The notes under the pieces are model-generated. The model did not search any database, was not told where the DNA came from, and was given only the letters and a program-made list of their open reading frames with translations. The translations under genes and the position numbers were made by a program. A stretch of 45,645 bases of DNA, taken from a virus. The DNA is taken from the IMG/VR virus record IMGVR_UViG_3300025087_000124, positions 1 to 45,645 of that record, one strand, 5' to 3'. Position 1 is the stretch's first letter; each line of letters opens with the position of its first letter. Of the stretch, positions 495 to 15,853 are shown one piece after another.

Positions 495-962
495 TTAAAT
501 GTTGTAGTTCGCAAATAACGAAATACCTCTAGAACCGATTGCTGGATCTATCAACACTCTATACTTAGAGGTTGAAGGGAAACCAGTAATTACTCCTACT
601 GGAAGTGCGTTGATCTGTATTGAAACACCGACTGTTTGATCATCAAGACCATAAGCCCATTGTCCAATATGAGCACTTACACCTGTTCCGTTTGCTTCAA
701 AAGTAAATTCTCCTTTTGACCAGACGTCAATTATTGCTTGAGAGGCACCAAGTCCTGCTGTTAAATCAACAAGGTTCTCGACAACTCCTAAGAAATAACC
801 GTTTGATGCACCTGCGGAAGTCAAAGGAATTACTCTTGCACCTGAAGCTCCTGTTTTCATAAGTAGAGTACCTTTGTAGTACTTATACCCGCTTGCTCCT
901 GTAAAGTGCAATAATTCTCCTGTCTGTCTTTGTGCGTCTCTGTTTGCGTTTGCTGCTGCCAT
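495..962 (-). CDS. Capsid decoration / cement protein (DUF2190-like)
   Basis: A 155-residue protein with a small-residue, beta-rich pattern: an early FTGASGYKYYKGTLLMK stretch, then IPLTSAGASNGYFLGV, and a mid-protein sequence reading VWSKGEFTFEANGTG. This resembles the DUF2190-type capsid cement proteins, which carry a G-V-A-type barrel and bind the outer capsid surface. It lies directly between the protease/scaffold gene and the major capsid gene, the usual position for such a protein. No transmembrane segment or signal peptide is present. The family call rests on pattern and place rather than on catalytic residues. Confidence 0.6.
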   Translation of the reverse strand: MAAANANRDAQRQTGELLHFTGASGYKYYKGTLLMKTGASGARVIPLTSAGASNGYFLGVVENLVDLTAGLGASQAIIDVWSKGEFTFEANGTGVSAHIGQWAYGLDDQTVGVSIQINALPVGVITGFPSTSKYRVLIDPAIGSRGISLFANYNI

Positions 963-983: not shown

Positions 984-2150
984 TTACTTTGCTTTAGACT
1001 TTTTATAGTCTTCTATCGCCTTTTTTCCATACTTCTCCCAGAAAATAGCCCATTCCTCATCACTCTTTTTAGCGTGAGTTGGAAGTGCTTTAATCTCTGC
1101 CTTAATCTTGTCCTCTTCAGAAGGCTCTGCATCAACTTCGTTGACACCGACTTCCTCTAAGTTAATTAAGACTGGATTCTTTTGGAACAAACCAACTAGA
1201 ACCTCAGACAATGAAACTGCACCCTCTGCAAGGTCGACAGTAGCACCACCTTCTTTATGAGCAAGGATAAATCCTTCCTTTTGAGACGGTAGTATTCTAC
1301 CCTCAGATAAAAGCACATTAAATGCCTTCTCTGCTTCCTCACCTTTGAGTGTAGCCTTTAGTTCCGCTAGCTCTATTTGAAGTTTTTGAATTTCAGATGT
1401 TTCACTTAGTTCAGAGGCTTCAATCTCCTCTTTTTTCTCGGAGTCCTCAGCTGGAACTTCCTCAACTACTTCAGCAGGGGTTTCTACAACCTCTTCTACC
1501 GCCTCGGCAGGTGTTTCCACCGCTTCGGGAGTTTCAGCAACTTCCTTCTTAGATTCCTCAGAAACTTTTGGCTCGACTTCTTCAGTCGTTACCTTTTCCA
1601 CTATTGCTTCCTCAGATTCCGTCTTGGTCTCTTCAACCTTAACTTCCTCTAGTTCCACCACTGGTGTAATAGGGTCTTTTGTTTTTGCCATGCTTTGTAT
1701 TTCTGACAAATTAATTAAATAGTTTTTATCGTTCTCCGATAACATAGTAAATCCCTCCATACCTTTAATATAAGGGTTCATAACTGCGGCAACGTGTCTT
1801 AATACCGCACCAACATTCTTTCCACTCTCTTTGTCTATATACTCTGGATCGATTGAAACACTAACATCGTTATACTTATCAAGTTCTTTCTCCTCAATTT
1901 CCATTTCGGCAAATAGTTTTTCACCCTCTATGGATAGTTTATTAATGTTCTTATTTAGTATTAATGCAGGATTCTTTTCGGCTTCTAAGTTTGAAATGTG
2001 GCCCCTAAGAACAGGTACAAACGGAGTAATCTTAAAATTGTCCATTAACTCCTTTAAGTAGTCTGTGGTTACCTCTAGTATCCCTTTAGGTGCATTAGGG
2101 TGCATCCACTTACCAGCTCTCAGTATTTCTTTTTTGTATTTTCTTATCAT
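984..2150 (-). CDS. Prohead protease with C-terminal scaffold (Mu gpI-like)
   Basis: A 388-residue protein. The N-terminal 150 residues (ILRAGKWMHPN, then TTDYLKELMDNF, then PVLRGHIS) match the Mu gpI protease, which matures the prohead. Residues about 165-270 are a very acidic Glu/Val/Pro/Ala-rich tract (repeats such as VVETPAEVVEEVPAED), followed by a short coiled coil (IQKLQIELAELKATLK). A C-terminal segment reading LSEGRILPSQKEGF resembles the scaffold-like tail of gpI. Mu makes a separate scaffold (gpZ) from the same region by internal initiation; an ATG at residue 154 (MAKTKDP), in the same frame, could do so here, but that is inference. It is followed by the decoration and capsid genes. 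Confidence 0.75.
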   Translation of the reverse strand: MIRKYKKEILRAGKWMHPNAPKGILEVTTDYLKELMDNFKITPFVPVLRGHISNLEAEKNPALILNKNINKLSIEGEKLFAEMEIEEKELDKYNDVSVSIDPEYIDKESGKNVGAVLRHVAAVMNPYIKGMEGFTMLSENDKNYLINLSEIQSMAKTKDPITPVVELEEVKVEETKTESEEAIVEKVTTEEVEPKVSEESKKEVAETPEAVETPAEAVEEVVETPAEVVEEVPAEDSEKKEEIEASELSETSEIQKLQIELAELKATLKGEEAEKAFNVLLSEGRILPSQKEGFILAHKEGGATVDLAEGAVSLSEVLVGLFQKNPVLINLEEVGVNEVDAEPSEEDKIKAEIKALPTHAKKSDEEWAIFWEKYGKKAIEDYKKSKAK

Positions 2151-2459: not shown

Positions 2460-2731
2460 AATGTTGTTAAGTTATTAAATATGTCTATAAATATTTCCAC
2501 GCCTGCCTCGCTTTTACAAACCCTGTCGTTCTCTAGTGGGCAATGTTCTCTAGCCAGTTCAACAATATCGTTAAACCTCATTCCTAATTCATAAAGCCCA
2601 AATAAGTAGCCCAAGGTTTCTGGAGTTAGTATCTGTTCAAAACCAATTGTTCTAACAAGGTCTTTTTTAAGTGTCTCAAATAGGCTCTTATAAAACTTAA
2701 GCTGTGCTATCCTTCTATCAATTGTTTCCAT
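2432..2731 (-). CDS. Hypothetical helical protein
   Basis: A 99-residue, mostly helical protein starting METIDRRIAQLKFY. It has no recognisable motif; two widely spaced cysteines (in EHCPLENDRVCKS) and another near the end are visible. It overlaps the glycosyltransferase gene upstream and the 78-residue gene downstream, so the three are likely translated together. No function is assigned. Confidence 0.6.
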   Translation of the reverse strand: METIDRRIAQLKFYKSLFETLKKDLVRTIGFEQILTPETLGYLFGLYELGMRFNDIVELAREHCPLENDRVCKSEAGVEIFIDIFNNLTTLCKKQTGAV

Positions 2732-3708
2732 TCACTTACCCCTTTTTCTAAACTAAACTTTTCAGCGTGCTTTTTGTTTCTATCTAAAGACCCCTTACCT
2801 TTAAAAGTAGACACTCCCACCTTTTGTCCAACAAGGGAATCAAAGTCTATAAACTCGTTGACTGTTTCCTGTAACCCACCTATTCTCCTTACAACGGGAA
2901 TTGCCCCGCAGTATTGAGCCTTTATTGCATTCATACAAAACAATTCTCCGTCTGGATTGTTACACGGAAGACACCAGTACTCAGACCTCCAGTACATTTC
3001 ACTCATTTGGGCAAAAGAAAGCCTGCCTAAGAGCTCTATTCCTTCCTGCTCCGTTAGTTTCATTATTTTCTTCTTCCAGTCCGCCATAGAAGGGTTAAAG
3101 GCAATTACCTTGTCTATAAAGTCCCATCCGTAGGTTATGTATAGCTTTTTAAGTTTTAACTTCTCTTTAACTGTACCCCACTTCGATAGTAAGTCCTCAA
3201 GCCCCCTGTCGTAACTTGAACAGTAGAGCATAGACCCCTCCTCTTTCGCTACCTTATTTTCGTCTAATCTGTTTAAATCCGCCCACAAGTACATTGGTTG
3301 AATCTTTACGTCTTTCGTGGCCATCCTAGAGGTGTGGTAGTTGCTTATAGTTATTACCTTATCTACGTTTCCTAACTCGTAGGGCAACCACTCTCCTTCA
3401 ATATCCGTTGTCCAATGAAACCTCTTTCTAGCACCAATACTCTTTTGAAACATTTCTCTGGTCTTGAAGGAAACAAAAACGTCCCTAGTCATGAATCCTT
3501 TAAACTCTAAATGGTCTCTATAATGCACCCCGTCAAAGTCCCCGTGTTCTCCGTTATGGTAAATGGTTACATCGTAGTCTTTAGAAAGTCCTCTAGCAAG
3601 TTCAATTAGTTTTTCTTCACTTCCGCCTACCCCTGTTTCAAGTGACTTAGCACTCCAACCTTCTTTAACTAGGTTTGTGTAAAAGTGTATCTTCTTCTTT
3701 GGGTTCAT
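2707..3708 (-). CDS. GT-B glycosyltransferase (GT4-like), last of the sugar cluster
   Basis: A 333-residue protein with the layout of a GT-B glycosyltransferase. It has an early glycine-rich GVGGSEEKLIELARGL segment (the donor-side loop with GGSE), a mid TISNYH segment, and a C-terminal half with SSYDRGLEDLL, ITYGWD and NNPDGELFCMNAIKAQ, the last being the equivalent of the E-x7-E region. The same landmarks (GIGGSEGMC, SSYDRGLDNVL, YYGWN, EFYEISCINAMTAQ) occur in the C-terminal half of the protein at 12004-14451, so the two are paralogous modules. It probably transfers an activated sugar to a surface or virion glycan; donor and acceptor cannot be read. Its start overlaps the preceding methyltransferase stop (ATGA). 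Confidence 0.75.
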   Translation of the reverse strand: MNPKKKIHFYTNLVKEGWSAKSLETGVGGSEEKLIELARGLSKDYDVTIYHNGEHGDFDGVHYRDHLEFKGFMTRDVFVSFKTREMFQKSIGARKRFHWTTDIEGEWLPYELGNVDKVITISNYHTSRMATKDVKIQPMYLWADLNRLDENKVAKEEGSMLYCSSYDRGLEDLLSKWGTVKEKLKLKKLYITYGWDFIDKVIAFNPSMADWKKKIMKLTEQEGIELLGRLSFAQMSEMYWRSEYWCLPCNNPDGELFCMNAIKAQYCGAIPVVRRIGGLQETVNEFIDFDSLVGQKVGVSTFKGKGSLDRNKKHAEKFSLEKGVSEWKQLIEG

Positions 3709-4325
3709 ATTGGTCTGTATAAAATTAGCAGTTGGTCGTCTCTAACGACACTTTCTTTAATCTCTCCGTACTTAGCAATCAGTTTTTCAAACTCTTCTTT
3801 AGTAAACATTCTAACGTGTTCTTCATTTCTCTTGGCGTCTTCTAGTCCGTGTCTACCATTAGCGTCTGGCGTAGATACCATTACATAAGTACCTAACCGA
3901 CTTAACACCTTCAACAAGGCGTTCTCGTCTACTACGTGTTCTATAACTTCTAAACAACTGACCGTGTCCGCGTGAAGACCCTCTGGCATATCTTCAGCAA
4001 ATCCTTTTTGAAACATTTTTCTACCGTCCCAACCTAATTGATCGGCCTTGTGTCTTGCCTCAAGTATAGAATCCTCACTTGGGTCTATACCAACACAATC
4101 AACCCCCATCGCTTGGAGTGTTAGACATTCGTAACCGTCTTTGCAACCCACAGCTATATGAGTTCTACCGTCTAACTCGTGTACCTTCTCTACTAGCCAT
4201 GCTATACGGTCTATCACCTTATGGGCTTGTGTACAGTTTTCTAATGGCATGAAGTTGCCGTCACTCTTGGCGTAGTATTCTTTGTTCTTATCCTTGTCCA
4301 GATACTTTTTGTTTTTTGTTTTCAT
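3705..4325 (-). CDS. Class I SAM-dependent methyltransferase
   Basis: A 206-residue protein with Rossmann methyltransferase motifs: motif I at about residues 56-64 (IAVGCKDGYE, a variant of the usual E/DxGxGxG), an acidic end to strand 2 (VGIDPSED), and a motif IV/post-I region reading VSCLEVIEHV, followed by YVMVSTPDANG. The last resembles the ubiE/COQ5-like and Methyltransf_23 families. It stands among glycosyltransferase and nucleotide-sugar genes and therefore most likely O- or C-methylates a sugar or its intermediate. It ends in TGA overlapping the next ATG, which also shows that TGA is a stop in this genome. Confidence 0.75.
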   Translation of the reverse strand: MKTKNKKYLDKDKNKEYYAKSDGNFMPLENCTQAHKVIDRIAWLVEKVHELDGRTHIAVGCKDGYECLTLQAMGVDCVGIDPSEDSILEARHKADQLGWDGRKMFQKGFAEDMPEGLHADTVSCLEVIEHVVDENALLKVLSRLGTYVMVSTPDANGRHGLEDAKRNEEHVRMFTKEEFEKLIAKYGEIKESVVRDDQLLILYRPI

Positions 4326-4332
4326 TGCTATT

Positions 4333-4560
4333 CTAACTAAAATTAATTCTCCGAATATAAGCCCTCAAGAACTCTAAATAATCCGAAGTAAACCCAAACT
4401 TTTTATCAAACTGTCTAAAAAATAAATCTATAAACGACATTATTCTCTCATTACTTTCAGTCATTTCTTCAATCATTATTTCACGAGGCAACCCCGTCCT
4501 CTGATAAAAATCAAAGGTGTAATAGTCTAACCAAGTTATAAAATTGCTAATCTTTTCCAT
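4333..4560 (-). CDS. Small hypothetical protein in sugar cluster
   Basis: A 75-residue protein rich in aromatic and charged residues (WLDYYTFDFYQR, FFRQFDKKFGF) with no family I recognise. It overlaps the end of the transketolase C-terminal gene by 14 bases and is followed after 7 bases by the methyltransferase gene, so it is clearly part of the cluster. It could be a small partner protein of one of the neighbouring enzymes; that is a guess from position. Confidence 0.6.
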   Translation of the reverse strand: MEKISNFITWLDYYTFDFYQRTGLPREIMIEEMTESNERIMSFIDLFFRQFDKKFGFTSDYLEFLRAYIRRINFS

Positions 4561-5122
4561 ATTTCTTTATAAAATATTCTTTACTCCCCCCAGTTTTTGG
4601 ATATTCTTTTAACTTGTCCAAGTCTATTTCAATCTCTGGATTCTCTTTATACCCACCAACTCTTATATACCGAGGCCTAGTAGGGGTTTCCCTTAATAGC
4701 TTATCAAGTTCTTCCTGGGTTTCTGGTGTGTAAATGTCTATGTTTAACAACTGTCCAATAGCCTTATCATCATCAAATGCAAAGTGGGTACTCCCTAAGT
4801 ATGCGTAATCAAAGTTAGTACCCACCCCGATCATCGTAACTGGTGAATTCTGGTAGCACAGGTCTAGCTTAATCTGTTCAAAAGCCCTCAAGTAGAAGGC
4901 ACACATAGTATATGTAAACACCTTCTTTCCCGCTAACGCTAATCCTGAAGCGATACCAACCATACTCTGTTCAGCCAATCCCACATTAATAAACCTATTA
5001 CCCATCTTTTCTTTAAGTGGCTCAAGAACGTTGTAGCCAACGTCTGCCGTCAAAAAGTAGGTATTATCGTCATTTATTTTTAGTAGTGTGTCTACTATTT
5101 TAGTTCTCATTGTAAAATCCAT
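4547..5122 (-). CDS. Transketolase, pyrimidine-binding (C-terminal) subunit, short
   Basis: A 191-residue protein matching the pyrimidine-binding domain of two-subunit transketolases. It has FLTADVG, then FINVGLAEQSMVGIASGLA, whose Glu (in GLAEQ) is the one that activates thiamine diphosphate, then YTMCAFYLRAFEQIK and a histidine in GSTHFAFDDD. The usual C-terminal domain of the family (another ~100 residues) is missing. It should pair with the N-terminal subunit at 5663-6355 to form a thiamine-dependent ketol-transfer enzyme. A methyltransferase gene separates the two halves. In a sugar cluster the likely role is adding a two-carbon unit to a keto sugar, giving a branched sugar; that role is inference. 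Confidence 0.8.
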   Translation of the reverse strand: MDFTMRTKIVDTLLKINDDNTYFLTADVGYNVLEPLKEKMGNRFINVGLAEQSMVGIASGLALAGKKVFTYTMCAFYLRAFEQIKLDLCYQNSPVTMIGVGTNFDYAYLGSTHFAFDDDKAIGQLLNIDIYTPETQEELDKLLRETPTRPRYIRVGGYKENPEIEIDLDKLKEYPKTGGSKEYFIKKYGKD

Positions 5123-5694
5123 TATTTTTTTATAAGCTCAAATACTCCTCTACCACCTATAGGTTGATAAACCTTAAATCCGTTCTCTTTAGCAAACCTG
5201 TCTACAGACAAAGTTACTCCTGGCCACCCGTAATCGTGTCCTAGAATATGCTTTACCGAATGCTTACATAAACATAGCTCAAGATACACAATAGGGTCTC
5301 TATGATCCCCGTCTATAAAACAGTATTCGTAGGTGTTGTCTATAATAGCCATAGCACCCGTCCAATCTAAAGACTTACTCCTTACAGTTCTCACGCAATC
5401 CGCCAACTCTTTGAGACTCGCTTTCATTGATTCCTCCGTGTGTTCTCCGTAAATATGCGTCTTGGCTTCGTCTTCGTCTATAGGGATATCAAACGTGTCC
5501 ACTACAGTATGCTTACCACCCTTTTCCTTTGCTATTGCACAACATACATAAGTCAACATTCCCTTGTAAGCTCCTATTTCTAGCGAATTACCACCTTTAT
5601 TAAGCTCTCTAAATCTATCAATAAGCCACTCAAGTTCGTCCCAACTCATTTTAGCGTCTGGATTAACTTGCCAAGCCTCGTCTATTAATCCCAT
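5122..5694 (-). CDS. SAM-dependent methyltransferase (Methyltransf_24/TylF-like)
   Basis: A 190-residue protein with the landmarks of the TylF/CmcI-like methyltransferase group. It has LEIGAYKGMLTYVC (SAM loop, about residues 38-51), VVDTFD (acidic strand-2 end), then FIDGDHRDPIVYLEL and ILGHDYGWPGV, the metal-binding D-x-D-H and HDY segments typical of metal-dependent O-methyltransferases acting on sugars. It sits between the two transketolase genes, overlapping the N-subunit gene by 32 bases and touching the C-subunit gene, so a joint role in finishing the same sugar is plausible. The ATG at 5692-5694 is a good start. Confidence 0.75.
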   Translation of the reverse strand: MGLIDEAWQVNPDAKMSWDELEWLIDRFRELNKGGNSLEIGAYKGMLTYVCCAIAKEKGGKHTVVDTFDIPIDEDEAKTHIYGEHTEESMKASLKELADCVRTVRSKSLDWTGAMAIIDNTYEYCFIDGDHRDPIVYLELCLCKHSVKHILGHDYGWPGVTLSVDRFAKENGFKVYQPIGGRGVFELIKK

Positions 5695-6355
5695 TGTTCT
5701 TTTTATATAACTTATATATTTCCTTATCTACCTTCTGGTAATGACTGGCCAAAGTATTTTCCAACTCACCCCAACCCTCACCCTTAGTAGAATAGAACTT
5801 AAATGTGTTGTAGGGTATTTGACCCTCACTTAACTCCTGAAAACCACCGAAGCCATTCACATCAACAACAGGTACTATGTTTCTTATTTCCAGTCTTCTA
5901 ATAATCTGTAACGATTCAAGTGTAGACCCTTCTTGACATTCCCCGTCACTCATAATAACAACCACCTTACGGTCTGGATTAGCTATCGCCCAACCTATAC
6001 CGATAGGCAATCCATGTCCTAACGACCCTGTAGAAGCGTATATGCCGTGTTCTATGTCTAGTGTGGCGTGCCCTGATAGCCCATCGTCTTTGTAATAACT
6101 CTTTAACATCTCATTGCTTATAACACCTGCTTCGTTTAAACAAACATACTGTGCCAACGCACCATGTCCCTTTGAAAGAATAACAATAGCCTTCGGGTCG
6201 TCATAATAAGTAGCTACTAGTATAGGAGCAACTGTCATTGCCGAAGCTACATGACCACAACCCGTTTCAAGTCCTATTCTCATTATTCTATCCTGTACTT
6301 TACGGGTTATGGCTTTAATCTCTTTTAGTCTTTTAGTTTTTTGTTTCTCTGTCAT
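5663..6355 (-). CDS. Transketolase, thiamine-diphosphate-binding (N-terminal) subunit
   Basis: A 230-residue protein with the ThDP-binding fold of split transketolases: LETGCGHVASAMT, then ILSKGHGALAQY, LSGHATLDIEHGIYASTGSLGHGL (residues about 93-116), and the cofactor motif starting MSDGECQEGSTLESLQ and ending VDVNGFGG. These correspond to the conserved histidines, the SLG loop and the GDG...N magnesium motif. Together with the protein from 4547-5122 it would form a complete active site. Phage-borne transketolase halves are rare. It is the third enzyme gene downstream of the dehydrase and dehydratase, so it likely acts on the keto-sugar they make. Confidence 0.85.
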   Translation of the reverse strand: MTEKQKTKRLKEIKAITRKVQDRIMRIGLETGCGHVASAMTVAPILVATYYDDPKAIVILSKGHGALAQYVCLNEAGVISNEMLKSYYKDDGLSGHATLDIEHGIYASTGSLGHGLPIGIGWAIANPDRKVVVIMSDGECQEGSTLESLQIIRRLEIRNIVPVVDVNGFGGFQELSEGQIPYNTFKFYSTKGEGWGELENTLASHYQKVDKEIYKLYKKNNGINRRGLAS

Positions 6356-7071
6356 AGATTTAATAGTTTCTTCATTTTAATTGGGTTTCCTACCCAAACA
6401 CTAGGTTCGTACTGATTTTGCTTGTATTTGTGCCACTTTTTATTGTCCTTACCGTTTAATATAAAGTCCCCGTTCTCAAGGGACTCTCCCTCGCAAACGT
6501 TTATTATTTCTCCGTACAGGTGCTTGGCGTGTAGTAGCCTCTCAACCGCATAAGAAACCAACTCTACAGGGAAATAGTCTCTACAATCCTTTGGGTTTCC
6601 GTACTTCAAAGCTTTTTTAAATCTAGACACAAAGTTCTTACCACCCTCTCCGTAAGGACTGAATATTCTTAGCGTGTTGTAACCAAGCAACTTAGCATAC
6701 AAAGTCACCGATAACTTTGCAATCCCGTAAGCATTCACAGGCTCGCATACCATATCTTCTTTCATAGGCTCGTATTTAACACCGTACTCACTTGAGCTAC
6801 CTATGTTAATAACTCGAATACCCCTCTTTTTACACTCATTAAAGAAGTTACAAGTCCATTCAGCAAACTCTAAGTGTTCTATAGACTGTAAGTCCTTGTC
6901 CGTACACCACGCACAGTGAATAACCGTGTCCAAACCCTCAAGTACCGACCATTCCTGATTCATAAACTCGCCTCTAGTTATCAAAGTAACCTCGTACCCA
7001 AGATCGTATAAATACTTACTCACGTGCTTACCTACAAACCCTGTTGACCCCGTTATACCTATTTTACCCAT
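6352..7071 (-). CDS. NAD(P)-dependent sugar epimerase/4-ketoreductase (extended SDR, short)
   Basis: A 239-residue short-chain dehydrogenase. The nucleotide motif GITGSTGFVG is at residues 5-14, the catalytic serine lies in GSSSEYG (91-97), and the Tyr-x3-Lys pair is Y115/K119 (YGIAK). It is shorter than typical epimerases (~300+), with the substrate domain trimmed. Such enzymes serve as 4-ketoreductases for 3,6-dideoxyhexoses (abequose and paratose synthases). That role would fit directly after the 4,6-dehydratase and the RfbH-type enzyme encoded upstream, but the exact product cannot be read. It overlaps both neighbours by a few bases. Confidence 0.75.
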   Translation of the reverse strand: MGKIGITGSTGFVGKHVSKYLYDLGYEVTLITRGEFMNQEWSVLEGLDTVIHCAWCTDKDLQSIEHLEFAEWTCNFFNECKKRGIRVINIGSSSEYGVKYEPMKEDMVCEPVNAYGIAKLSVTLYAKLLGYNTLRIFSPYGEGGKNFVSRFKKALKYGNPKDCRDYFPVELVSYAVERLLHAKHLYGEIINVCEGESLENGDFILNGKDNKKWHKYKQNQYEPSVWVGNPIKMKKLLNL

Positions 7072-8036
7072 TCTGGATTATTCATACTAAATTTAACTGT
7101 CTGCTCTAACGCATTGTCAAAGTCGAATGGTGGTCTCCAACCCAACTCCAGTATCTTACTATAGTCTATTGAGTATCTTCTATCATACCCTGGTCTAATT
7201 GATTTGGCCTCTACCATTTCATACTTCAATTCTTGACCCATAATATCCGCTACCTTTTGAGCCATTTCTAAGTTACTCAATTCTACTTCGCTTCCTACAT
7301 TAATCTTCTTCTCATTCTGTTCTAGCATATACAATATAGCACTTGCACTATTCTTAGCGTATAACCAGTATCGGCTACCTACTACCCCGCCTGTATGATG
7401 TATAGGTACTTTTTCCCCTCTAAGTATATGTCCAACTATCTTAGGCACAAACTTTTCAGGATCTTGTCTTTCTCCGAACATATTCATAGTACGCATTATG
7501 GTAATCGGCAATCCATACGTTTCCATATAGGCATTCGCTATCATTTCTCCAGAAGCTTTCCCAGCACTGTAAGGATTTCTAGGATTTAAAGCGTCTGTCT
7601 CCTTAAACTTTGATCCGACTTCAGCGTCTCCGTATACCTCGTCTGTAGAATAGTAAATAAACCTCTTTAATCTAGTCTGATACTTCCTTGCGTAATCTAA
7701 CATCGAGATTGTAGACAAAGAATTGTTAACAAACACCTCTCTAGGTCTAGTAATAGAATCATCAACATGACTGTCCGCAGCTACGTGTACAATGTAATCA
7801 ACTTCCCCTATATGACGGTGTACAGAATCCAACGGGTCTATTAGATCGTGTCTGATAATCTGTACTCTTTTAGGTAGGTTGTAGCCCTCCACAATCGATT
7901 CTAAACGGTTCAAGTTACCCGCCCTACTCATTCGCACAAGGCACACAATTTCCCAATCAGTAGTATGCAAAAAGTACTCAAGTACATGAGCACCTACAAA
8001 CCCAGAAACTCCCGTTATTGCTACCCTTGTATTCAC
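7059..8036 (-). CDS. NDP-glucose 4,6-dehydratase-like protein (RmlB-like)
   Basis: A 325-residue extended SDR with a textbook dehydratase signature. It has GVSGFVG at 9-15, HVAADSHVDDSI at about 84-95 (compare HxAAxSHVDRS in RmlB), the catalytic T131-D132-E133 in STDEVYG, and Y156/K160 in NPYSAGK. The TDE triad is what distinguishes 4,6-dehydratases from epimerases. The product would be an NDP-4-keto-6-deoxyhexose, the substrate of the RfbH-type enzyme just upstream. The start is GTG at 8034-8036, preceded by a leader that repeats a sequence found 121 bases upstream. No nucleotidyltransferase is present, so the NDP-sugar probably comes from the host. Confidence 0.8.
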   Translation of the reverse strand: MNTRVAITGVSGFVGAHVLEYFLHTTDWEIVCLVRMSRAGNLNRLESIVEGYNLPKRVQIIRHDLIDPLDSVHRHIGEVDYIVHVAADSHVDDSITRPREVFVNNSLSTISMLDYARKYQTRLKRFIYYSTDEVYGDAEVGSKFKETDALNPRNPYSAGKASGEMIANAYMETYGLPITIMRTMNMFGERQDPEKFVPKIVGHILRGEKVPIHHTGGVVGSRYWLYAKNSASAILYMLEQNEKKINVGSEVELSNLEMAQKVADIMGQELKYEMVEAKSIRPGYDRRYSIDYSKILELGWRPPFDFDNALEQTVKFSMNNPEWVK

Positions 8037-8169
8037 GTAATGTTCAATTAATTTATACTACTCCCCTATTCAACCCCTCTCGCCACCCTATTTTCACAAA
8101 CCCTGTTAAATCAACGCTTTTCCCCTCCCCTACTGTGTGAAAAGCGGAGTGGGGGAGAGTATGTTCAAT
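8037..8169 (-). promoter_or_regulatory. Intergenic region with interleaved inverted repeats
   Basis: This 133-base gap is the longest inside the otherwise tightly packed sugar cluster. It holds two overlapping inverted repeats in the order A-B-A'-B'. A/A' is CGCTTTTC (8115-8122) with GAAAAGCG (8139-8146). B/B' is CTCCCCTACT (8125-8134) with AGTGGGGGAG (8148-8157), which matches except for one G-T pair. Both stems cannot form together comfortably because the crossing loops are only 1-4 bases, so they look mutually exclusive. The position between two sugar genes suggests a transcriptional or translational control element, or a remnant of insertion. No clear U-tract follows either hairpin. Confidence 0.5.
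8041..8058. repeat. Direct repeat copy 1 (18 bp, one mismatch to copy 2)
   Basis: TGTTCAATTAATTTATAC here and TGTTCAATTTATTTATAC at 8162-8179 differ at one base. This copy forms the leader of the dehydratase gene, in the place where a ribosome-binding site would be. Confidence 0.7.
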
Positions 8170-8179
8170 TTATTTATAC
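8162..8179. repeat. Direct repeat copy 2
   Basis: The second copy of the 18-bp repeat overlaps the stop codon of the RfbH-like gene. The two copies bracket the GC-richer segment with the interleaved inverted repeats, as if that segment had been inserted or duplicated between them. Confidence 0.7.
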
Positions 8180-9414
8180 CTTCCCAAGAACTCAAGTATC
8201 TTCTCCTTCATATACGCCCTCTGTTCTTCTTTTATACCAGGGTGTACCCCTATCCAGAAGCTATTGTCCATTATGTCATCACTTACACTTAGGTCGGGGT
8301 GTTTTCTGAATGCCCACTTGCCACCCCTAGAAAGTACGGGTTGTTTAGTAATGTTACCACAAAAGAAAGCCCTACTCCTGATACCCTGTTCATCTAGGAA
8401 CTGCTCAAACTCTCTTTTAGTAAACGGAGCTTTATCGTTTAGTTTTATAACATACCCGAAAGGACTCATTTCGGCACCGTCATACGCTAGTGTAGGTTCA
8501 AACCATTCCTTGTACTGACTGAACACCGCAGTTAGAAACTTGTGGTTAAATTGCCTGTCTCTAATAAATCCTGGTAGCCTTTTCATTTGCTCTACTCCAA
8601 TCGCAGCTTGTATCTGGCTCATTTTAAAATTAAACCCGAACTCCGTGTACGTGTTCTTATGGTCGTACCCCTTTGGTAGTTCACCGTGCTTTTGTCCGTA
8701 CCTAGCACCGCAAGTGTTGTCCTGCCCTGGAGGGCAATAGCAATCTCTACCCCAATTGATCATTGCATTTAATCCCCTTTGAAGCTGAAAGTTGTTTGTC
8801 ATTACAGCACCGCCTTCGCCTGTAGATATATGGTGTGCAGGATAAAAGGACAAAGTACTTAAATGACCAAAGCTACCAGTCTTTCTACCGTTCCACGTCC
8901 CGCCTAAGCAGTCGCAGTTATCCTCAATCAAGGTTATTCCTTCTTCTTCACAAATAGCCATTATCTCTTCCAAATTAAATGGGTTTCCCAAAGCGTGAGC
9001 CACCATGATAGCCTTTGTTTTATCGGTTATCATTTCCCTAACTTGTCCAGGGCTTATGTTCCAAGTATTCCTTTCCACATCAACAAACACAGGTATCGCA
9101 CCCGAATAGGCTATGGGACTTACGGTAGTTGGAAAACTTAATGCAGTGGTTATTACTTCGTCACCCTTGTTCAATCTTCTATTAACAGGAATGTAGTCGG
9201 TAGTTAGTGCCATTAAGGCTGCGAAGTTTGCACTCGTACCGCTGTTGACTAATTCAACGTGTTTCATGCCAATAAACCCACTCAAAGCCCTTTCAAACTC
9301 TTCAGTAGGTTCACCCTCGACATTCCACCATTGCTCGGCTGCTCTTTGTGCTGCTTCGACCTCTTCTCTGCCGTGTACAGGCGTTGAAGGATCAATTCGT
9401 ATTTGGCTACTCAT
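8170..9414 (-). CDS. rfbH: RfbH/E1-type NDP-4-keto-6-deoxyglucose 3-dehydrase (PMP, 2Fe-2S)
   Basis: A 414-residue DegT-fold protein. The pyridoxal lysine of aminotransferases is replaced by histidine: FYPAHHISTGEGGA, with H194 at the lysine position. The four iron-sulphur cysteines of the E1 family are present with the exact known spacing C-57x-C-1x-C-7x-C (C167, C225, C227, C235, in EDNCDC and GRDCYCPPGQDNTCG). The downstream GYDHKNTYTEFGFN block also matches RfbH. E1 removes the 3-hydroxyl of NDP-4-keto-6-deoxyhexose using PMP and electrons from a reductase (E3), and starts 3,6-dideoxyhexose synthesis. No E3 gene is visible in the window; the host or a generic reductase would have to supply electrons. 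The dehydratase gene follows directly. Confidence 0.9.
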   Translation of the reverse strand: MSSQIRIDPSTPVHGREEVEAAQRAAEQWWNVEGEPTEEFERALSGFIGMKHVELVNSGTSANFAALMALTTDYIPVNRRLNKGDEVITTALSFPTTVSPIAYSGAIPVFVDVERNTWNISPGQVREMITDKTKAIMVAHALGNPFNLEEIMAICEEEGITLIEDNCDCLGGTWNGRKTGSFGHLSTLSFYPAHHISTGEGGAVMTNNFQLQRGLNAMINWGRDCYCPPGQDNTCGARYGQKHGELPKGYDHKNTYTEFGFNFKMSQIQAAIGVEQMKRLPGFIRDRQFNHKFLTAVFSQYKEWFEPTLAYDGAEMSPFGYVIKLNDKAPFTKREFEQFLDEQGIRSRAFFCGNITKQPVLSRGGKWAFRKHPDLSVSDDIMDNSFWIGVHPGIKEEQRAYMKEKILEFLGRYK

Positions 9415-9417
9415 TTG

Positions 9418-10263
9418 TTACAAACTATCATAAAACTTAGAGAGAATCAATGACTCAATTTTTAGTAATTGCTCTTTCATTTCGTACTTTTTAACCTTTA
9501 GGTATCCACTCTCTATAATGTCCTTATAGCTGTCGTAATCCTTCAGTACAGCGTCCAGTTGTGTGGGCAAATCACTTAGCCTGTTCCAATATATGAACTG
9601 CCTGCCGTTCTCAAATCCTAGCTTCTCGATTAGGGAAGTTTGTAGTCTCTTCTGTAATAATAACGAGTTACTTCCCATTGCTTCAAAGAATCTATTGTTA
9701 AGTATAATGTCCCAAGGCTCTGTAGGTTGGTTAATAACTATTTTGGCGGAGCTCATGACCTCGGAATAGGTCTCCAAGTCTTCAATTCTGCCACAATAAC
9801 TATTATATCCCTTTAAAACTTCCCACAATCGTATTCTTTCCTGACTATTAGCGTTTCCTATCATAACAACGTCATACTTCTTTTCTATAGGCTTAAAGTA
9901 CTCCTCACGGTATGTAATCGGTACTAAGTAGCTTTCTATTCCGTTTAATTCGAGAAGCTTTGCTCCGTGTTCATAATTACTACTAATCACTAGTTCGCAC
10001 TTTCTAGCTAGGTTACAACCCCTATCAAGACCCCCTGGCATATGAGAATCCATTAGCCAACACACTTTTGGATACTTAATCTCTGGTATATTAGCGGTAA
10101 AGTCCTCGCTACAATCGACAAAGAAGTAAACCCCCTTCTTAACAGGTATTCTTTCGTTGCGGTCATAGGCTTCGACCTCGTGCCCAATCTGGCGTAAACC
10201 GTCTACAACCCACTGTCCCATAGACCCGTATTGTCCCAGGTACCCCACAACAATAAACTTCAT
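9418..10263 (-). CDS. Glycosyltransferase, CgeB/GT-B-like
   Basis: A 281-residue protein resembling the CgeB-type glycosyltransferases. The N-terminal half has MKFIVVGYLGQYGSMG and VCWLMDSHMPGG. The C-terminal half has DVVMIGNANSQERI and INQPTEPWDIILNNRFFEAM, the family's E-x-M region that marks the donor-binding domain (RFFEAMGS). It probably adds one sugar to the glycan built by this cluster. It overlaps the Nudix gene by an ATGA junction and lies 3 bases from the RfbH start. Confidence 0.7.
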   Translation of the reverse strand: MKFIVVGYLGQYGSMGQWVVDGLRQIGHEVEAYDRNERIPVKKGVYFFVDCSEDFTANIPEIKYPKVCWLMDSHMPGGLDRGCNLARKCELVISSNYEHGAKLLELNGIESYLVPITYREEYFKPIEKKYDVVMIGNANSQERIRLWEVLKGYNSYCGRIEDLETYSEVMSSAKIVINQPTEPWDIILNNRFFEAMGSNSLLLQKRLQTSLIEKLGFENGRQFIYWNRLSDLPTQLDAVLKDYDSYKDIIESGYLKVKKYEMKEQLLKIESLILSKFYDSL

Positions 10264-10730
10264 AAGTTTTGTATTAGCTTTCTATGGTAATTAATCATAT
10301 TCCCTGGTAGTTCATCTTTTGAATAAAACAAACCAACCTCACCATTACCCTTCACATACCTTGCCTTATAGAGCAGATGAGTTATAGTTCCCCTCTTAGT
10401 TTCCGCCGTGTAAACATCAAACAATTCCGCCTCGACTGGTTTGAAGGAGGAAAAGTCGTCTAAAAAAAGTCTTTCTATCGCCTTTTTCACCGTCTCATTT
10501 CCTCTTACCATAGTGCCAGGTATATGGTACTTACTAGGCCAAAATTTATCATCAACTCTTCTTTTTACTAAACAGTATTTTTTATGTTTGCCCATACCCT
10601 TATACATAAGTAACTCCACAGAGAGCTGGTGGTTAATCCTTTGCATTTCAAAGAAGATAGGCTCTGGTAAAAACCCAGGCCTTAACCTTTTAAGAAGTTT
10701 CACCGTTAACCAATCTAGTAGTGTTTTCAT
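10260..10730 (-). CDS. Nudix-fold protein with degenerate catalytic box
   Basis: A 156-residue protein with the overall layout of a Nudix hydrolase: a KYCLVKRR strand, then KYHIPGTMVRGNETVKKAI, followed by LFDVYTAETKRG. The Nudix box G-x5-E-x7-R-E-U-x-E-E-x-G-U is only partly kept: G and the first E are present (GTMVRGNE), but the R-E-x-x-E-E segment reads RLFLDDF. Loss of the metal-binding glutamates suggests weak or changed activity, perhaps a binding role. In sugar clusters such proteins often act on GDP-mannose. It is packed between a methyltransferase and a glycosyltransferase gene. Confidence 0.6.
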   Translation of the reverse strand: MKTLLDWLTVKLLKRLRPGFLPEPIFFEMQRINHQLSVELLMYKGMGKHKKYCLVKRRVDDKFWPSKYHIPGTMVRGNETVKKAIERLFLDDFSSFKPVEAELFDVYTAETKRGTITHLLYKARYVKGNGEVGLFYSKDELPGNMINYHRKLIQNL

Positions 10731-11317
10731 GCCTTTGTCCCTCTCATTCCGAATGCAGGGTAGGTGTGCATATTCGGATATAATTTAATATCCACAAGTC
10801 CCACATCTTGAAACAGCTTCCTTAATGTCTTTTTGTTGTACATTGCCTTGTGAACGCCGTACTCGTTCTTCTGCGATCCGTACAAAAGCCTTGTTCCCCA
10901 CACAGGGTCGGTTCTATATATTTCCACCGTTCTATCTAGGTCTGGCACATCTAAATGGACAAACCCTCCGTGTTTTAGAAGTGAAACCCAATACTCTAGT
11001 ACCTCCCGACCCTCTACAAACGAAAAGTGCTCAAATACCTGAACTCCAAGTATTTCGTCAACACTTTCTTTCTCGTAAGGCAATTCTCGTATATCAGCAA
11101 ACAAGTCGCAAACGTTCTCCTTGTGTTGTAAAGACCCGCTCAAGAATATATCCCTATCAACATACTCCTTATAGTAGCTATCTAATGTTGTCGTATTCTT
11201 TTCCACTAAATCAGGTCTGTCTTTTGCTAAAAAGGCTTCGGGCAATGAAACGTCTATATTTGTATATCCTGGAGTTAGGTAGACCGTTCCGTTTGCTAAG
11301 TGCAGTTTATTTTTCAC
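10727..11317 (-). CDS. SAM-dependent methyltransferase-like protein (COG4627-like)
   Basis: A 196-residue protein starting with GTG. The opening KLHLANGTVYLTPGYTNIDVS matches the COG4627-type opening (LHLGCG...GWINID), but with LANG in place of LGCG, so the SAM loop is altered. The later segments VQVFEHFSF and HGGFVHLDVPDLDR fit motif IV and the strand after it. Activity is therefore uncertain, although the fold seems clear. It overlaps the upstream glycosyltransferase gene by 11 bases. Confidence 0.65.
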   Translation of the reverse strand: MKNKLHLANGTVYLTPGYTNIDVSLPEAFLAKDRPDLVEKNTTTLDSYYKEYVDRDIFLSGSLQHKENVCDLFADIRELPYEKESVDEILGVQVFEHFSFVEGREVLEYWVSLLKHGGFVHLDVPDLDRTVEIYRTDPVWGTRLLYGSQKNEYGVHKAMYNKKTLRKLFQDVGLVDIKLYPNMHTYPAFGMRGTKA

Positions 11318-12002
11318 AGTAAGTTATTGGTAAAGTTAAATCGTTGTAAGGATGTAAAAACTTTTCTTCATTGGCATCCCCACCCCACTTTTGAATATAT
11401 CTCTTATAAGCCCTGTCAAGCCTCTCGGCATCGTTTCCTATCGTTCCAGAGTAAGGAGGATGATATTCTAACTCCATATCGGGTTGTATCCACTCAAAAC
11501 CACACACCCTCGCCCTATAAAGAAAATCCCTCTCCACAAATTCACACGGAAACTGTTCGTCAGCGTATCCTACCGCCTCTAAAACCCCTTTGCGTAACAA
11601 AAACGTAGCAGGATCTTTAGGTTTGTGAGTGGTAAGCCGTTCCGTATAACTTCTTTGACCGAAGTTCTTTTTAAAACCCTCGTAGTCTCTGGTAACTTTA
11701 CAGGAAATAGCCCCTCCTTTTGGGTTCTCCTCTGCACACCTTACAAGAAAGTCCACCATCATAGGGTCGTGCTCCACGTCATTAGCGGTGATAAGTAGGT
11801 AATCGTATTCTTTACCCATCCATTGCCTAAAAAAATGATTCCATACGCCCGCAACCTTCGTTTCGTACCTTCTGCCATCCTCATAGACCTTTAAACAGTG
11901 TTCAAACGACATTAAAGACTTTCTAGACTTGTCAGTCATTTCCTGTTGTTCTTTATTTGTTATGTAGTACGGCAATAAAGCCTTTATCTTTATACACTCC
12001 AC
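11307..12002 (-). CDS. GT-A-type glycosyltransferase-like protein
   Basis: A 231-residue protein with an apparent GTG start (an internal ATG at residue 22 is the alternative). It has an acidic mid-region ITANDVEHDPMMVDFL (a D-x-x-x-D-like donor motif), and ATFLLRKGVLEAVGYADEQF, then FVERDFLYRARVCGFEW, a pattern seen in GT2-like enzymes where an E-x-D near the C-terminal end is the catalytic-base region. Donor and acceptor are unknown. The gene lies 1 base downstream of the large bifunctional glycosyltransferase gene. Confidence 0.6.
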   Translation of the reverse strand: MECIKIKALLPYYITNKEQQEMTDKSRKSLMSFEHCLKVYEDGRRYETKVAGVWNHFFRQWMGKEYDYLLITANDVEHDPMMVDFLVRCAEENPKGGAISCKVTRDYEGFKKNFGQRSYTERLTTHKPKDPATFLLRKGVLEAVGYADEQFPCEFVERDFLYRARVCGFEWIQPDMELEYHPPYSGTIGNDAERLDRAYKRYIQKWGGDANEEKFLHPYNDLTLPITYCEK

Positions 12003-12003
12003 C

Positions 12004-14451
12004 CTAATTAGAATCGAAAAACTTATCCCACTCCAAAGCTAATTTTTCCATATCAAATTGCTTTCTAGCCCACTTCATCATAGGTTTTCTTCTTTTTTCA
12101 AGTTCTTCTGGATTGTCTAGTAAGTAAACACAAGCCTCTGGTATCTCGTTTAATTCCGCCTTAATACCAAACTCTCCATTGACTGTCTCATTAAGTGCTG
12201 CAAACGGAGTACATACAGGCACACAACCCATTGCCTGTGCTGTCATAGCGTTAATACACGATATCTCGTAAAATTCTGTAGGATACAACCATATACTAGC
12301 TTCCTTAAAAGCCTTGTACAGCTCATTTTGTGAAACTCTACCTACTTCTCTGACCCCTAAAGGTGCTAATTGCGTCATCATACCGACTATCCGATTCTTG
12401 TAGTCTCTCATATAATTGCCTTGTGGAGTACCTTGTCTTGCGTTCATCATAGCGTCATAAGTATTCCAACCGTAGTAAATATCCAAAGTCGCTTCAGGGT
12501 GCTTCTCTTTAATAGAGGGCCACATACTCAACACGTTATCAAGTCCTCTGTCGTAGCTTGAAGCATAAATAAACTTATTCTTATCTCTCTCACCTGCGTG
12601 TTCATCTGCATACGCCATCGCAATTGGATTCAATCCGTTTCTAGTAACCCAAAACTGCTTATCGTCTAACACCCCGTGGTTCTCTTTAATCACCTGTTTG
12701 TGTGACTCACTTAATACGAATACCTTGTTAGGAGCGTAAAAATGACCCAATTCTAACTCGTTTCCATACTCTGTGTCGTGTAGCCACAAATACTGTTTAG
12801 TCGCCCTATACACTTGGTTAAACATATCAGGCCTTCTCATTACCACCAAAACGTCACACTTCATGCCTGCATTAAACTTCTTCCAATCCATGTAAGTAAC
12901 CCCGTCTATGACTTTCCCGTCTGACTCCCCACATTCGTTGTATACATACACCTCGTTACCAATCGCAGCAAGTTCTCTACTCATTTGAATACACATTCCC
13001 TCACTACCACCGATTCCCTTTTCCTTGTCTGAATTGCCATCCCAAGGTTCGTAGTGACCCCCTACAAATATAACAATAGACTTTTTTCCCTTTAGTATGG
13101 TCTGTACACCTTTCCTGGAGTAGTTATCCGTTACTTCTTTAATAATTTGTTGCACATACCTTTCTTCTTTTAGTGGTAGGGGAATAGCTGTCTTTAACCT
13201 GTCAAACATAGGCACATCGTTTGTGCTAATAATATACTTAGTTACTTGAGCCAATCCCTTCATCGCTTCCTGTTTAGTTACTTCGCTTAGTATATTTCTT
13301 TTGTCGTTCTTATGCCCTGGAAGTGGGGATAACTTAATTATTTCGTCAGCCATTGCTAAAGCCTCGGCATTCATACCCTTAAACATATAAGCCTGTTCAA
13401 GTATCTTTCGTGGAGTTATTAAATAGTCGTACTCATTAATTGGTGCGGTTGTATTAGGCATTCCTATTTGCAAAACCTTTTGTGCATAAGTAGCTGCTTC
13501 TTCCCACCGATTAAGCATAGCGTAACTCTGTGCAATGGTTACATACGGCTCTGCTCTATCTGGCTGATTAAGCACTCTCGGTATATTACTTGCCTTTAAA
13601 AGTACCATGAGAGCTGTGTAAGGCTTGTTCATAGACATATACGCAAAACCCATTTTCAGGTAGGAGTTATACATTCCCTCTAAGTCGTTAGACTCTTTTA
13701 GTCTCTTTGTAAGTATTCTGTAGTACTTTAAGGAAGGTTTAAACTCTCTGTGTTCCCAATGGTCAAAGGCTAGGTTATGAAGCATTTTATTACTAAACTT
13801 CTCAAGACCGTCTTCTTCTAACTGTCTAGTCATAATGATATTGTTTCTCCTGCCTGTAGCAATGGCTTCGTGTGAAGTCCTCTCGTGTTCAACCGACAAC
13901 AAGGGTATGTCTACCATCTTGTGAGGTGGCACTATTTCGTAAGTTTCATGTACTCTGTCTTTCCATTCTCCTTCAATCCTTAAATCTATAAACCTTTCCC
14001 TTTTCTGTACAACAGGCTTCAGTCCATCGGAACTCTTAGCGTATACATAAGTTACAAGTCCAAGATTAACACCTTCTTTATCTAGTCTTTCAGCTATCTC
14101 TGGTACTAATTGAGGGTTTACAAGCACATCGTCTGAATCAATCCAGAAAGCATAGTCATACCCCTTAGCTAGAGCAAAACTATCATTTCTGGCCCTTCCG
14201 AAGTCGCCAAGCCATTCACGGTCTTCTACCATGACTGATTTATAATCTTTTCCTATGAATTTCTTTGAGGTTTTAAATGGTTTCTTGTTGTCTTTACACC
14301 ATTTCTCAAACATTTCTACAGTACCGTCTTTTGATCCTGTGTCTTGAAGGAAGTATCCATCGAATACTCCTTGTGTTGAGTTAAGCGTTCTTAGTAATTG
14401 CCTTTCCCTGTCTTTAGCAATCACGCAAAGGGCTACTTTGACTTTCTTCAT
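12004..14451 (-). CDS. Large three-part glycosyltransferase (GT2 + TPR + GT4)
   Basis: An 815-residue protein with three visible parts. Residues 1 to about 210 are a GT2 domain: VALCVIAKDRERQL, then LQDTGSKDGTVE, and the donor motif D105-S-D107-D108. Residues about 215-430 are helical repeats with TPR-like spacing (LKYYRILTKRLKE, YVTIAQSYAMLNRWEEA). Residues about 450-815 are a GT-B domain with GIGGSEGMCIQMS, SSYDRGLDNVL and EFYEISCINAMTAQAMGCVP. It is the first gene of the sugar cluster, next to the tail-fibre-like genes. It could attach and then extend a glycan on a virion protein, or act at the host surface. Confidence 0.8.
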   Translation of the reverse strand: MKKVKVALCVIAKDRERQLLRTLNSTQGVFDGYFLQDTGSKDGTVEMFEKWCKDNKKPFKTSKKFIGKDYKSVMVEDREWLGDFGRARNDSFALAKGYDYAFWIDSDDVLVNPQLVPEIAERLDKEGVNLGLVTYVYAKSSDGLKPVVQKRERFIDLRIEGEWKDRVHETYEIVPPHKMVDIPLLSVEHERTSHEAIATGRRNNIIMTRQLEEDGLEKFSNKMLHNLAFDHWEHREFKPSLKYYRILTKRLKESNDLEGMYNSYLKMGFAYMSMNKPYTALMVLLKASNIPRVLNQPDRAEPYVTIAQSYAMLNRWEEAATYAQKVLQIGMPNTTAPINEYDYLITPRKILEQAYMFKGMNAEALAMADEIIKLSPLPGHKNDKRNILSEVTKQEAMKGLAQVTKYIISTNDVPMFDRLKTAIPLPLKEERYVQQIIKEVTDNYSRKGVQTILKGKKSIVIFVGGHYEPWDGNSDKEKGIGGSEGMCIQMSRELAAIGNEVYVYNECGESDGKVIDGVTYMDWKKFNAGMKCDVLVVMRRPDMFNQVYRATKQYLWLHDTEYGNELELGHFYAPNKVFVLSESHKQVIKENHGVLDDKQFWVTRNGLNPIAMAYADEHAGERDKNKFIYASSYDRGLDNVLSMWPSIKEKHPEATLDIYYGWNTYDAMMNARQGTPQGNYMRDYKNRIVGMMTQLAPLGVREVGRVSQNELYKAFKEASIWLYPTEFYEISCINAMTAQAMGCVPVCTPFAALNETVNGEFGIKAELNEIPEACVYLLDNPEELEKRRKPMMKWARKQFDMEKLALEWDKFFDSN

Positions 14452-14872: not shown

Positions 14873-15853
14873 CTAAGCCATTTTCATTACCCTAATCATT
14901 GTTCCTGCTTTTAATGTTGTTACTGCCGTAGTTTCTGAACGGAAAAAGAATGTAGCTGTTCCCGCGTTGGTTGTACTAATTAATATTCCACCACCAATCA
15001 CAGGATAGGTAGCGGTACCTGGCATGCCTGAAGATATTCCGTTTGCAGTCGCACCAGCGCCACCTACACTTGTAGCTCCAGATAGTGTACCTGTTAAAGC
15101 TAGTGAGTGACTTACAAAAACACCCACATAAGTAACAGCAACCGAAGTGTCAATAAGAATACCACATCCAGTTGTGGCGGCGGTCGGGGCAACCATACCA
15201 AAAATATCAATTACATACTTAGAATTAGCCTCAAAGCTGAAACTCAATCCAGTTGTTACAGGAGTAGTGTTTGCACCAGTAGGCTTGTCCGCAGCTAAAA
15301 CAAGTTTAGCAGTAAATGGGTCCGCACCGCCAGAATGAGAGTGAGAAGATATGGCTCCTGTGAGTTTGGCTTCTATTTCGGCTTTTGTTATGTCAGCATT
15401 TACTTGAGCTCCAGAAGGTGCGTGTGCAGAAGTCACATGAGCCTGAATATTAGAGTTACTCGCTTCTTTTGCATTTAAAGCATTCTGTAGGTCTGTTTGT
15501 GATGACAATGTTCCCGCTATCCCACCCCAAGTAGGGGTACCACCAGAAGTATTGTCTTCTAGCAAATCAACGTCTACTATAGCGGTAGGAGGGGGAGGAA
15601 AAATAACGTCCCCTGGATTAGTATAGGTCTCTGGTATGTCCCTCAACGCCTGCCTATAAGTGACCCAGTCTATAGGAATAATCTTAGTCTTTTCGACTAT
15701 AGCGGCTATAAGCCAATCAGTTCGTTCTAAAAGAGAATCCCTCGATTTTCTTATTAACACCCATTTTTCCTCAGCGGAAGTTAAATCTACCAACATTGGT
15801 ACTACATTATCCGTGTTTCTTACTAAGGTCGTTGTATCTATATATTCACTCAT
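14873..15853 (-). CDS. Tail-fibre / appendage-like protein
   Basis: A 326-residue protein. The N-terminal 130 residues contain helical and linker segments including KAEIEAKLTGAISSHSHS (a His-Ser linker frequent in tail fibres). The C-terminal half is small-residue and beta-rich (FEANSKYVIDIFGMVAPTA, GNAGTATFFFRSETTAV-like), typical of trimeric receptor-binding tips. It follows the larger 691-residue fibre-like gene after 2 bases. It probably forms part of a host-recognition or head fibre. Confidence 0.6.
   Translation of the reverse strand: MSEYIDTTTLVRNTDNVVPMLVDLTSAEEKWVLIRKSRDSLLERTDWLIAAIVEKTKIIPIDWVTYRQALRDIPETYTNPGDVIFPPPPTAIVDVDLLEDNTSGGTPTWGGIAGTLSSQTDLQNALNAKEASNSNIQAHVTSAHAPSGAQVNADITKAEIEAKLTGAISSHSHSGGADPFTAKLVLAADKPTGANTTPVTTGLSFSFEANSKYVIDIFGMVAPTAATTGCGILIDTSVAVTYVGVFVSHSLALTGTLSGATSVGGAGATANGISSGMPGTATYPVIGGGILISTTNAGTATFFFRSETTAVTTLKAGTMIRVMKMA

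Follow-up and report, generated by a model that had tools for sequence, protein, structure and literature searches.

Glycosyltransferases of mycobacteriophages decorate capsid and tail-tube subunits (Freeman et al. 2023, as cited in PMC12619734). In the route to yersiniose, YerE adds a two-carbon branch to cytidine diphosphate (CDP)-3,6-dideoxy-4-keto-D-glucose; a similar branching of keto sugars by split-gene transketolases has been proposed for miharamycin and amipurimycin (PMC12247030). Here we describe a cluster of sugar biosynthesis and transfer genes (the island) at positions 2707–14451 of the IMG/VR virus record IMGVR_UViG_3300025087_000124, which was analysed as a whole (45,645 bases; referred to as the window). 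We favour, with a probability of about 0.6, the reading that this is a phage-owned island for glycosylation of the virion, maintained vertically in the head operon of siphophage-like phages with Mu-type head genes.

Conservation and anatomy of the island

Relatives of the window were gathered by searching viral contigs for its portal protein, RfbH, glycosyltransferases (GTs) and major capsid protein (MCP). A GT of 815 amino acids (aa) was encoded in 9/9 contigs of the phage group in which the island is visible, the window included (the eight others being L002, L006/L016, L008, L010/L018, L011, L014, L015 and L017), and wherever flanks could be seen its gene lay downstream of the portal gene and upstream of the protease gene. 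A second GT (GT_2707) was present in the window, L002, L010/L018, L011, L014, L015, L016 and L017, L008 being too short to show it, and the methyltransferase next to it (MT_3705) in all contigs of the group except L011 and L008. By contrast with this core, the sugar-making genes vary. The full set, with its 4,6-dehydratase, was seen within the group in the window and L002 only; L014, L015 and L017 hold RfbH, a short-chain dehydrogenase/reductase (SDR) and both transketolase halves with no dehydratase homologue. RfbH and the split transketolase therefore occur together in five phages (the window, L002, L014, L015 and L017). L016 keeps the SDR in the absence of RfbH and of both transketolase halves, and L018 and L011 have GTs and methyltransferases only. 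As judged from gene content, the island has a constant, putative attachment core and a variable, putative sugar-making middle.

The whole cluster recurs in L002 together with the protease, decoration protein and MCP, mostly at 44–65% identity to the window, and L003, a separate record, is 100% identical in protein over the portal, fibre and APC genes. Between the window and L002, codon positions 1 and 2 change far less than position 3, as expected of genes that are being maintained. The N half of the phage transketolase (TktN) forms a single clade (support 100/100) on a long branch, and the G+C content of the island is 40.3% versus 39.2% elsewhere, with no step at either edge. Because of this single clade, the matching G+C content and the third-position excess of change, the island is likely to have resided in these phages for a long time. 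In L026 (portal 27% identical), the portal gene is followed by the protease gene with nothing between them, while in L025/L113 the portal and protease genes are divergently transcribed, ~0.4 kb apart, with no island there. L025, an 8-kb contig with its portal gene on the opposite strand, is only suggestive of an island-less, rearranged relative.

The record is an essentially whole, circularly permuted genome of ~45,643 bp, since joining its ends through a 2-bp overlap ('TG', 1–2/45644–45645) restores an uninterrupted, 334-aa MCP of the Mu gpT type (PF10124), which is otherwise split between both contig ends. The joined protein aligns to the 336-aa MCP of L002 without a gap at the junction. A gap in the Pfam profile (positions 141–219) had raised the possibility of ~230 missing bases, which was ruled out by the L002 MCP, and the continuity of the MCP across the contig ends likewise ruled out a fragmentary genome; the IMG/VR class of the record is linear despite this continuity. 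Near-all likely genes lie on the minus strand, in the order TerL, portal-MuF, fibre, APC protein, island, protease, decoration protein, MCP and tail.

Much of this had been anticipated by an earlier note, made from the letters alone. Profile searches (Pfam, PHROG and NCBIfam) recovered every major gene that it had listed, on the minus strand within 2707–14451: four GT proteins (with five GT domains), three methyltransferases, a 4,6-dehydratase, a 3-dehydrase, a reductase/epimerase and a split transketolase, mostly overlapping or abutting (the exception being a 133-bp gap at 8037–8169). Its Nudix-like protein was not sustained, as the match is under the family cut-off and no homologue was found in related loci. 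The cluster was said to take up a quarter of the genome and does so (11.7 of 45.6 kb, 26%), the contig being whole. It was also placed between the fibre and head genes; the fibre gene does lie upstream, but the cluster sits inside the head module, with TerL and portal-MuF upstream and protease, decoration protein and MCP downstream. That the phage owns the cluster agrees with its conservation, its fixed position in the head operon and the third-position excess.

No close isolate was found by portal searches, the nearest matches, e.g. Rossellomorea and Bacillus phages, being 27–30% identical. Elsewhere in the window, the product of 22039–22593 has a strong hydrophobic segment and matches phrog_16914, annotated 'sporulation protein', and 31944–32453 encodes a DnaD-like helicase loader; together these give a weak hint of the host.

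Predicted sugar pathway and attachment enzyme

The 3-dehydrase scored above the equivalog cut-off of its family (423 bits) and matched the E1 crystal structure 3bcx with 358 bits. Its [2Fe-2S] motif CX57CXCX7C is intact (C167, C225, C227 and C235), and the catalytic His stands in YPAH, in place of the pyridoxal phosphate Lys. Inteins were observed in the RfbH genes of two relatives, of which L002 (5290–7323) carries one and L015 (7817–10963) two. The insertion points lie directly in front of Cys167 and Cys225 (window numbering). Both residues belong to the four [2Fe-2S] ligands, so that an Fe-S ligand forms the +1 extein residue, and removal of the inteins in silico restores CX57CXCX7C. Within the intein-coding stretch of L002, another frame holds an HNH endonuclease open reading frame (ORF; PF13392; 6027–6548).

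No nucleotidylyltransferase was found, and no recognised E3 or ferredoxin-reductase-like partner of RfbH among the window proteins scanned by profile, so the phage would rely on its host for nucleoside diphosphate (NDP)-sugars and reductants. The earlier claim of a complete route from nucleotide sugar to attached glycan was overstated in view of these two gaps. In relatives that lack successive upstream steps, host NDP-sugars would likewise have to feed the pathway.

By profile, the best PDB matches of TktN and of the second transketolase half (TktC) are the split-transketolase structures 6yak (2.4e-41) and 6yaj (5.6e-29), respectively; the thiamine diphosphate (ThDP) motif SDGE...N is found in TktN and the catalytic Glu of GLAEQ in TktC. 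A survey of 80 cellular loci around TktN relatives identified RfbH, at 40–51% identity, in seven (L028, L037, L038, L039, L046, L058 and L094), with the E1 motif exact in all of these except L046. RfbF and a 4,6-dehydratase were also present in six of the seven, L038 ending early, giving six cellular loci that combine TktN, TktC, RfbF, a 4,6-dehydratase and RfbH; in L039, TktC and RfbH overlap by 4 bp. The best family match of the dehydratase was the CDP type in L058 (478 bits, over the cut-off of 278) and in L037, L046 and L094 (201–211 bits), and RfbF in the scanned cellular loci reached 285–287 bits, just under its cut-off of 300. One viral contig, L012, carries at 8844–13501 a structural-looking ORF followed by RfbG-TktN-TktC-RfbF-SDR, with no RfbH, and its TktN groups with cellular TktN. 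These gene sets point to a 4-C-branched 3,6-dideoxysugar as the putative phage product, a transketolase-built carbon branch being an addition to what the earlier note had claimed.

The AlphaFold2 (AF2) model of the 815-aa protein (mean pLDDT 84, pTM 0.52) comprises a GT-A domain, a helical domain resembling tetratricopeptide repeats (TPR) and a GT-B domain. Its best Foldseek matches in the PDB are SunS (4e-14; 7msp TMt 0.69), SPINDLY, OGT and ThuS, with EarP at rank 50, and the N-terminal domain matches GmaR by sequence (4.5e-7) and SunS by profile (2.6e-4). In the model, the succession of GT-A and helical repeat domains matches the fold of SunS/GmaR-type protein GTs, and the enzyme is probably the initiating virion-protein glycosyltransferase and adds the first extension. 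The model of the small GT encoded next to it (pLDDT 70, moderate) matches the fold of GT-A enzymes, e.g. B4GalT1 and SpsA; this protein is 53–61% identical in five relatives.

None of the island proteins contains a strongly hydrophobic stretch (19-residue mean below 1.5), nor did the island yield a flippase, polymerase or phosphoglycosyltransferase. Genes for GT2-TPR(-GT-B) proteins also adjoin head genes in three contigs whose MCP is of another family (phrog_1328), namely L107, L019 and L021. Because of the likeness to protein GTs, the lack of membrane segments and the position near head genes in two capsid families, the acceptor is most likely a virion protein, the candidates being the MCP and the decoration, fibre, APC and portal proteins. 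As far as gene order indicates, the GT genes are conserved by position in the structural operon, as in phage virion glycosylation systems. L107 is a podovirus from Manatee Spring. In L021, groEL (8434–10002) separates the GT2-TPR part from the GT-B part, both being encoded between TerL and portal, and the same, unrelated head operon encodes a homologue (33%) of MT_3705.

Taking the gene identities, RfbH motifs, split-transketolase homology, whole genome, position, conservation and core-plus-variable anatomy as read from the sequence, we infer the following order of steps, branched product and acceptor, with shielding of the particle or tuning of adsorption as the presumed benefit. The 4,6-dehydratase would convert host NDP-glucose to a 4-keto-6-deoxy sugar, from which the RfbH-type Fe-S/pyridoxamine phosphate 3-dehydrase, with host reductants, would remove the C3 hydroxyl. 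The split transketolase would move a two-carbon ketol unit onto the C4 ketone to give a branched sugar, and the SDR would reduce the new or remaining ketone, as with YerE plus reductase for yersiniose. The GT2-TPR-GT-B enzyme would then, in the cytoplasm, put the first sugar(s) on Ser, Thr or Cys of a head or fibre protein, after which the other GTs would lengthen the chain by adding the branched sugar and the methyltransferases would cap it.

Table 1 Predicted features of the island and of the neighbouring head genes, with positions in the window
Feature	Positions	Strand	Basis and remarks
Major capsid protein, N part	3..476	-	PF10124; continues at 45115-45645 across ends
Decoration-like protein, possible acceptor	495..962	-	Position and conservation
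Head maturation protease, fixed downstream landmark	984..2150	-	phrog_976 2.5e-12
GT-B glycosyltransferase, core gene (GT_2707)	2707..3708	-	PF00534 3e-6
Methyltransferase (Methyltransf_23; MT_3705)	3705..4325	-	PF13489 3e-14
Small ORF, 75 aa	4333..4560	-	No family match
Split transketolase, Pyr half (TktC), without C-terminal domain	4547..5122	-	PF02779 1.4e-15
Methyltransferase (Methyltransf_24), between transketolase halves in the window	5122..5694	-	PF13578 8e-9; also in L002, L017
Split transketolase, PP (N) half (TktN)	5663..6355	-	PF00456, NF004559 4e-27
SDR reductase/epimerase	6352..7071	-	PF01370 8e-19, phrog_540; kept in 5 relatives
NDP-hexose 4,6-dehydratase, RmlB-like	7059..8036	-	TIGR01181 246 bits, under cut-off
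RfbH/E1-type NDP-4-keto-6-deoxyhexose 3-dehydrase	8170..9414	-	NF011936 500.6 bits
GT-B-type glycosyltransferase (Glyco_trans_1_2)	9418..10263	-	PF13524 2.6e-8; kept in 5 relatives
Nudix-like protein, weak call	10260..10730	-	PF00293 16.5 vs 21.1 bits cut-off, E = 0.009
S-adenosylmethionine (SAM) methyltransferase	10727..11317	-	PF08241 barely over cut-off; kept in L002, L006/L016, L014, L015, L017
Small GT-A-like glycosyltransferase	11307..12002	-	phrog_29879 galactosyltransferase; AF2 fold
GT2 (GT-A) + TPR + GT-B fusion, 815 aa, core gene	12004..14451	-	Pfam/PHROG; AF2 model
Phage_tail_APC domain protein, upstream neighbour, possible acceptor	14873..15853	-	PF16778 2.8e-12, phrog_4912
Fibre-like protein, 691 aa, 21% Ser+Thr, possible acceptor	15856..17931	-	phrog_257 0.0004; composition
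Portal-MuF fusion, fixed upstream landmark	17931..20309	-	PF06074, PF04233
Major capsid protein, C part	45115..45645	-	PF10124; junction

Points against and alternative explanations

Several observations count against a virion-glycosylation island that makes a branched sugar. In L008 and L011 the GT gene directly follows the portal gene with no fibre gene between them, so that the fibre is not a constant neighbour and is only one possible acceptor. The dehydratase is RmlB-like, scoring 246 bits against a cut-off of 365 for its nearest family (TIGR01181) and only 75.7 against 278 for the CDP type (TIGR02622). As it falls below every cut-off, the sugar nucleotide is uncertain and could be either CDP or deoxythymidine diphosphate; CDP has the support of the cellular loci but not of the phage dehydratase. 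TktC has 191 aa and ends after its Pyr domain, compared with 341 aa in 6yaj with its C-terminal domain, which is missing also from the homologues in L002, L014 and L017, and all five phage TktN proteins lack a stretch of ~40 residues. For so short a transketolase, ketol transfer is predicted and activity is not assured; within sugar clusters the enzyme could also have another role. Matches to the GT-B part of the 815-aa model include non-protein GTs, e.g. BshA and PimA, and core lipopolysaccharide (LPS) glycosyltransferases are also soluble.

The truncation of the phage halves relative to cellular ones would suit a different reading, which we consider rather unlikely: that virion glycans are made, but that the split transketolase provides or uses up a pentose or ketose precursor of another residue, with no branching. 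Since 73 of the 80 TktN loci have no RfbH match of at least 38%, split transketolases in sugar clusters often come without RfbH. Within the phage group, however, the two are found in the same five phages, and in L016 and L018 all three genes, for RfbH and for both transketolase halves, are missing at once. Six cellular loci, moreover, tie both to CDP-sugar genes, with the 4-bp overlap of TktC and RfbH in one of them.

It is also possible, and in our estimate unlikely, that the island serves to alter sugars of the host envelope (LPS, capsule or S-layer), blocking superinfection or adsorption to debris. RfbH, 4,6-dehydratase and split transketolase are typical cellular envelope-polysaccharide genes, and the GTs of pelagimyophages and groundwater phages have been interpreted as LPS-directed (PMC7029224, PMC10980836). 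Yet the island encodes neither a membrane flippase or polymerase nor a lipid-carrier enzyme, its proteins lack strong hydrophobic segments, its initiating enzyme resembles protein/peptide GTs, and it holds a fixed place in the late head operon, with similar enzymes near the head genes of a second capsid family; from this position, late expression with the head genes would be expected. The earlier note had named both the capsid or fibre and the host surface as targets; protein-GT likeness, the lack of hydrophobic segments and the head-gene position favour the former and make the latter less favoured.

Modification of phage DNA by the island GTs (glucosylated or otherwise hypermodified bases) is very improbable: there is precedent for DNA hypermodification by virus GT clusters (Pyle et al. 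2024, as cited in PMC12619734) and BFVD contains one phage match with a DNA GT annotation (rank 49), but the initiator is of the GT2-TPR type and no hydroxymethylase, thymidylate-synthase-like or nucleoside-modifying gene was found among 20 further proteins compared with PHROGs. An assembly chimera of phage and host chromosome, which the earlier note had raised as a way to overturn its claim and which the enzyme types typical of cellular polysaccharide loci might suggest, can be dismissed in view of the MCP continuous across the ends, the syntenic relatives in independent samples and the uniform G+C content.

More tentatively, virion glycosylation by this island may be one instance of a general capsid-glycosylation system with exchangeable outer sugars, in which a branched 3,6-dideoxysugar, made by an Fe-S dehydrase and a minimal two-chain transketolase, would be linked to a head or fibre protein by a SunS/GmaR-like GT2-TPR-GT-B enzyme that recurs beside unrelated capsids. 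If virion glycosylation is correct, phages of ~45 kb can encode the larger part of a rare-sugar pathway that serves their own particle, a bacteriophage analogue of what chloroviruses do, and the island would supply testable genes for why phages glycosylate capsids and a candidate minimal transketolase for C–C branching of deoxysugars. GT2-TPR-GT-B genes beside head genes would then mark glycosylated phages in metagenomes.

Comparison with known systems

By description, the island shares phage-encoded GTs with mycobacteriophage virion glycosylation. To our knowledge, mycobacteriophage virion glycans are simpler and built from host sugars, with no dideoxysugar/transketolase pathway. Chloroviruses, which are large, eukaryotic and unrelated, likewise encode the greater part of a pathway that runs in the cytoplasm, with NDP-sugar enzymes, several GTs and methylation of sugars, and combine a conserved core with virus-specific outer sugars, but their glycan is attached through N-linked beta-glucose. 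We know of no RfbH or transketolase in the chlorovirus system. With SunS/ThuS, the SPbeta prophage-derived S-glycosyltransferase type, and with GmaR, the flagellin O-GlcNAc transferase, the 815-aa enzyme shares a GT2 domain with a helical/TPR-type partner, a fold match over ~320 columns and a sequence match to GmaR; it differs in its extra C-terminal GT-B domain and in the absence of a bacteriocin or flagellin locus.

Yersiniose biosynthesis in the Yersinia O-antigen (E1/RfbH – YerE; PMC12247030, PMC4753412) resembles the predicted pathway in its RfbH-type 3-dehydrase, ThDP-dependent carboligase and reduction. In the island, by contrast, a two-subunit transketolase stands where the yersiniose route has the single-chain flavoprotein YerE; the island also lacks E3 and RfbF, has an RmlB-like dehydratase and is located in a phage head operon. 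The sugar/LPS auxiliary genes of pelagimyophages, cyanophages and groundwater phages (PMC7029224, PMC10980836, PMC12911398) likewise encode GTs and enzymes of NDP-sugar synthesis, some of them next to genes for tail fibres, whereas the island keeps one place in the head operon and combines a constant core with a near-complete deoxysugar module, in a genome of 45.6 kb. Within the part of the literature covered, no report was found that links a TPR glycosyltransferase, the phage capsid and glycosylation of flagellin. Phage virion glycosylation is known; as far as our searches show, the transketolase/RfbH branch and the core-plus-variable design in a head operon are new.

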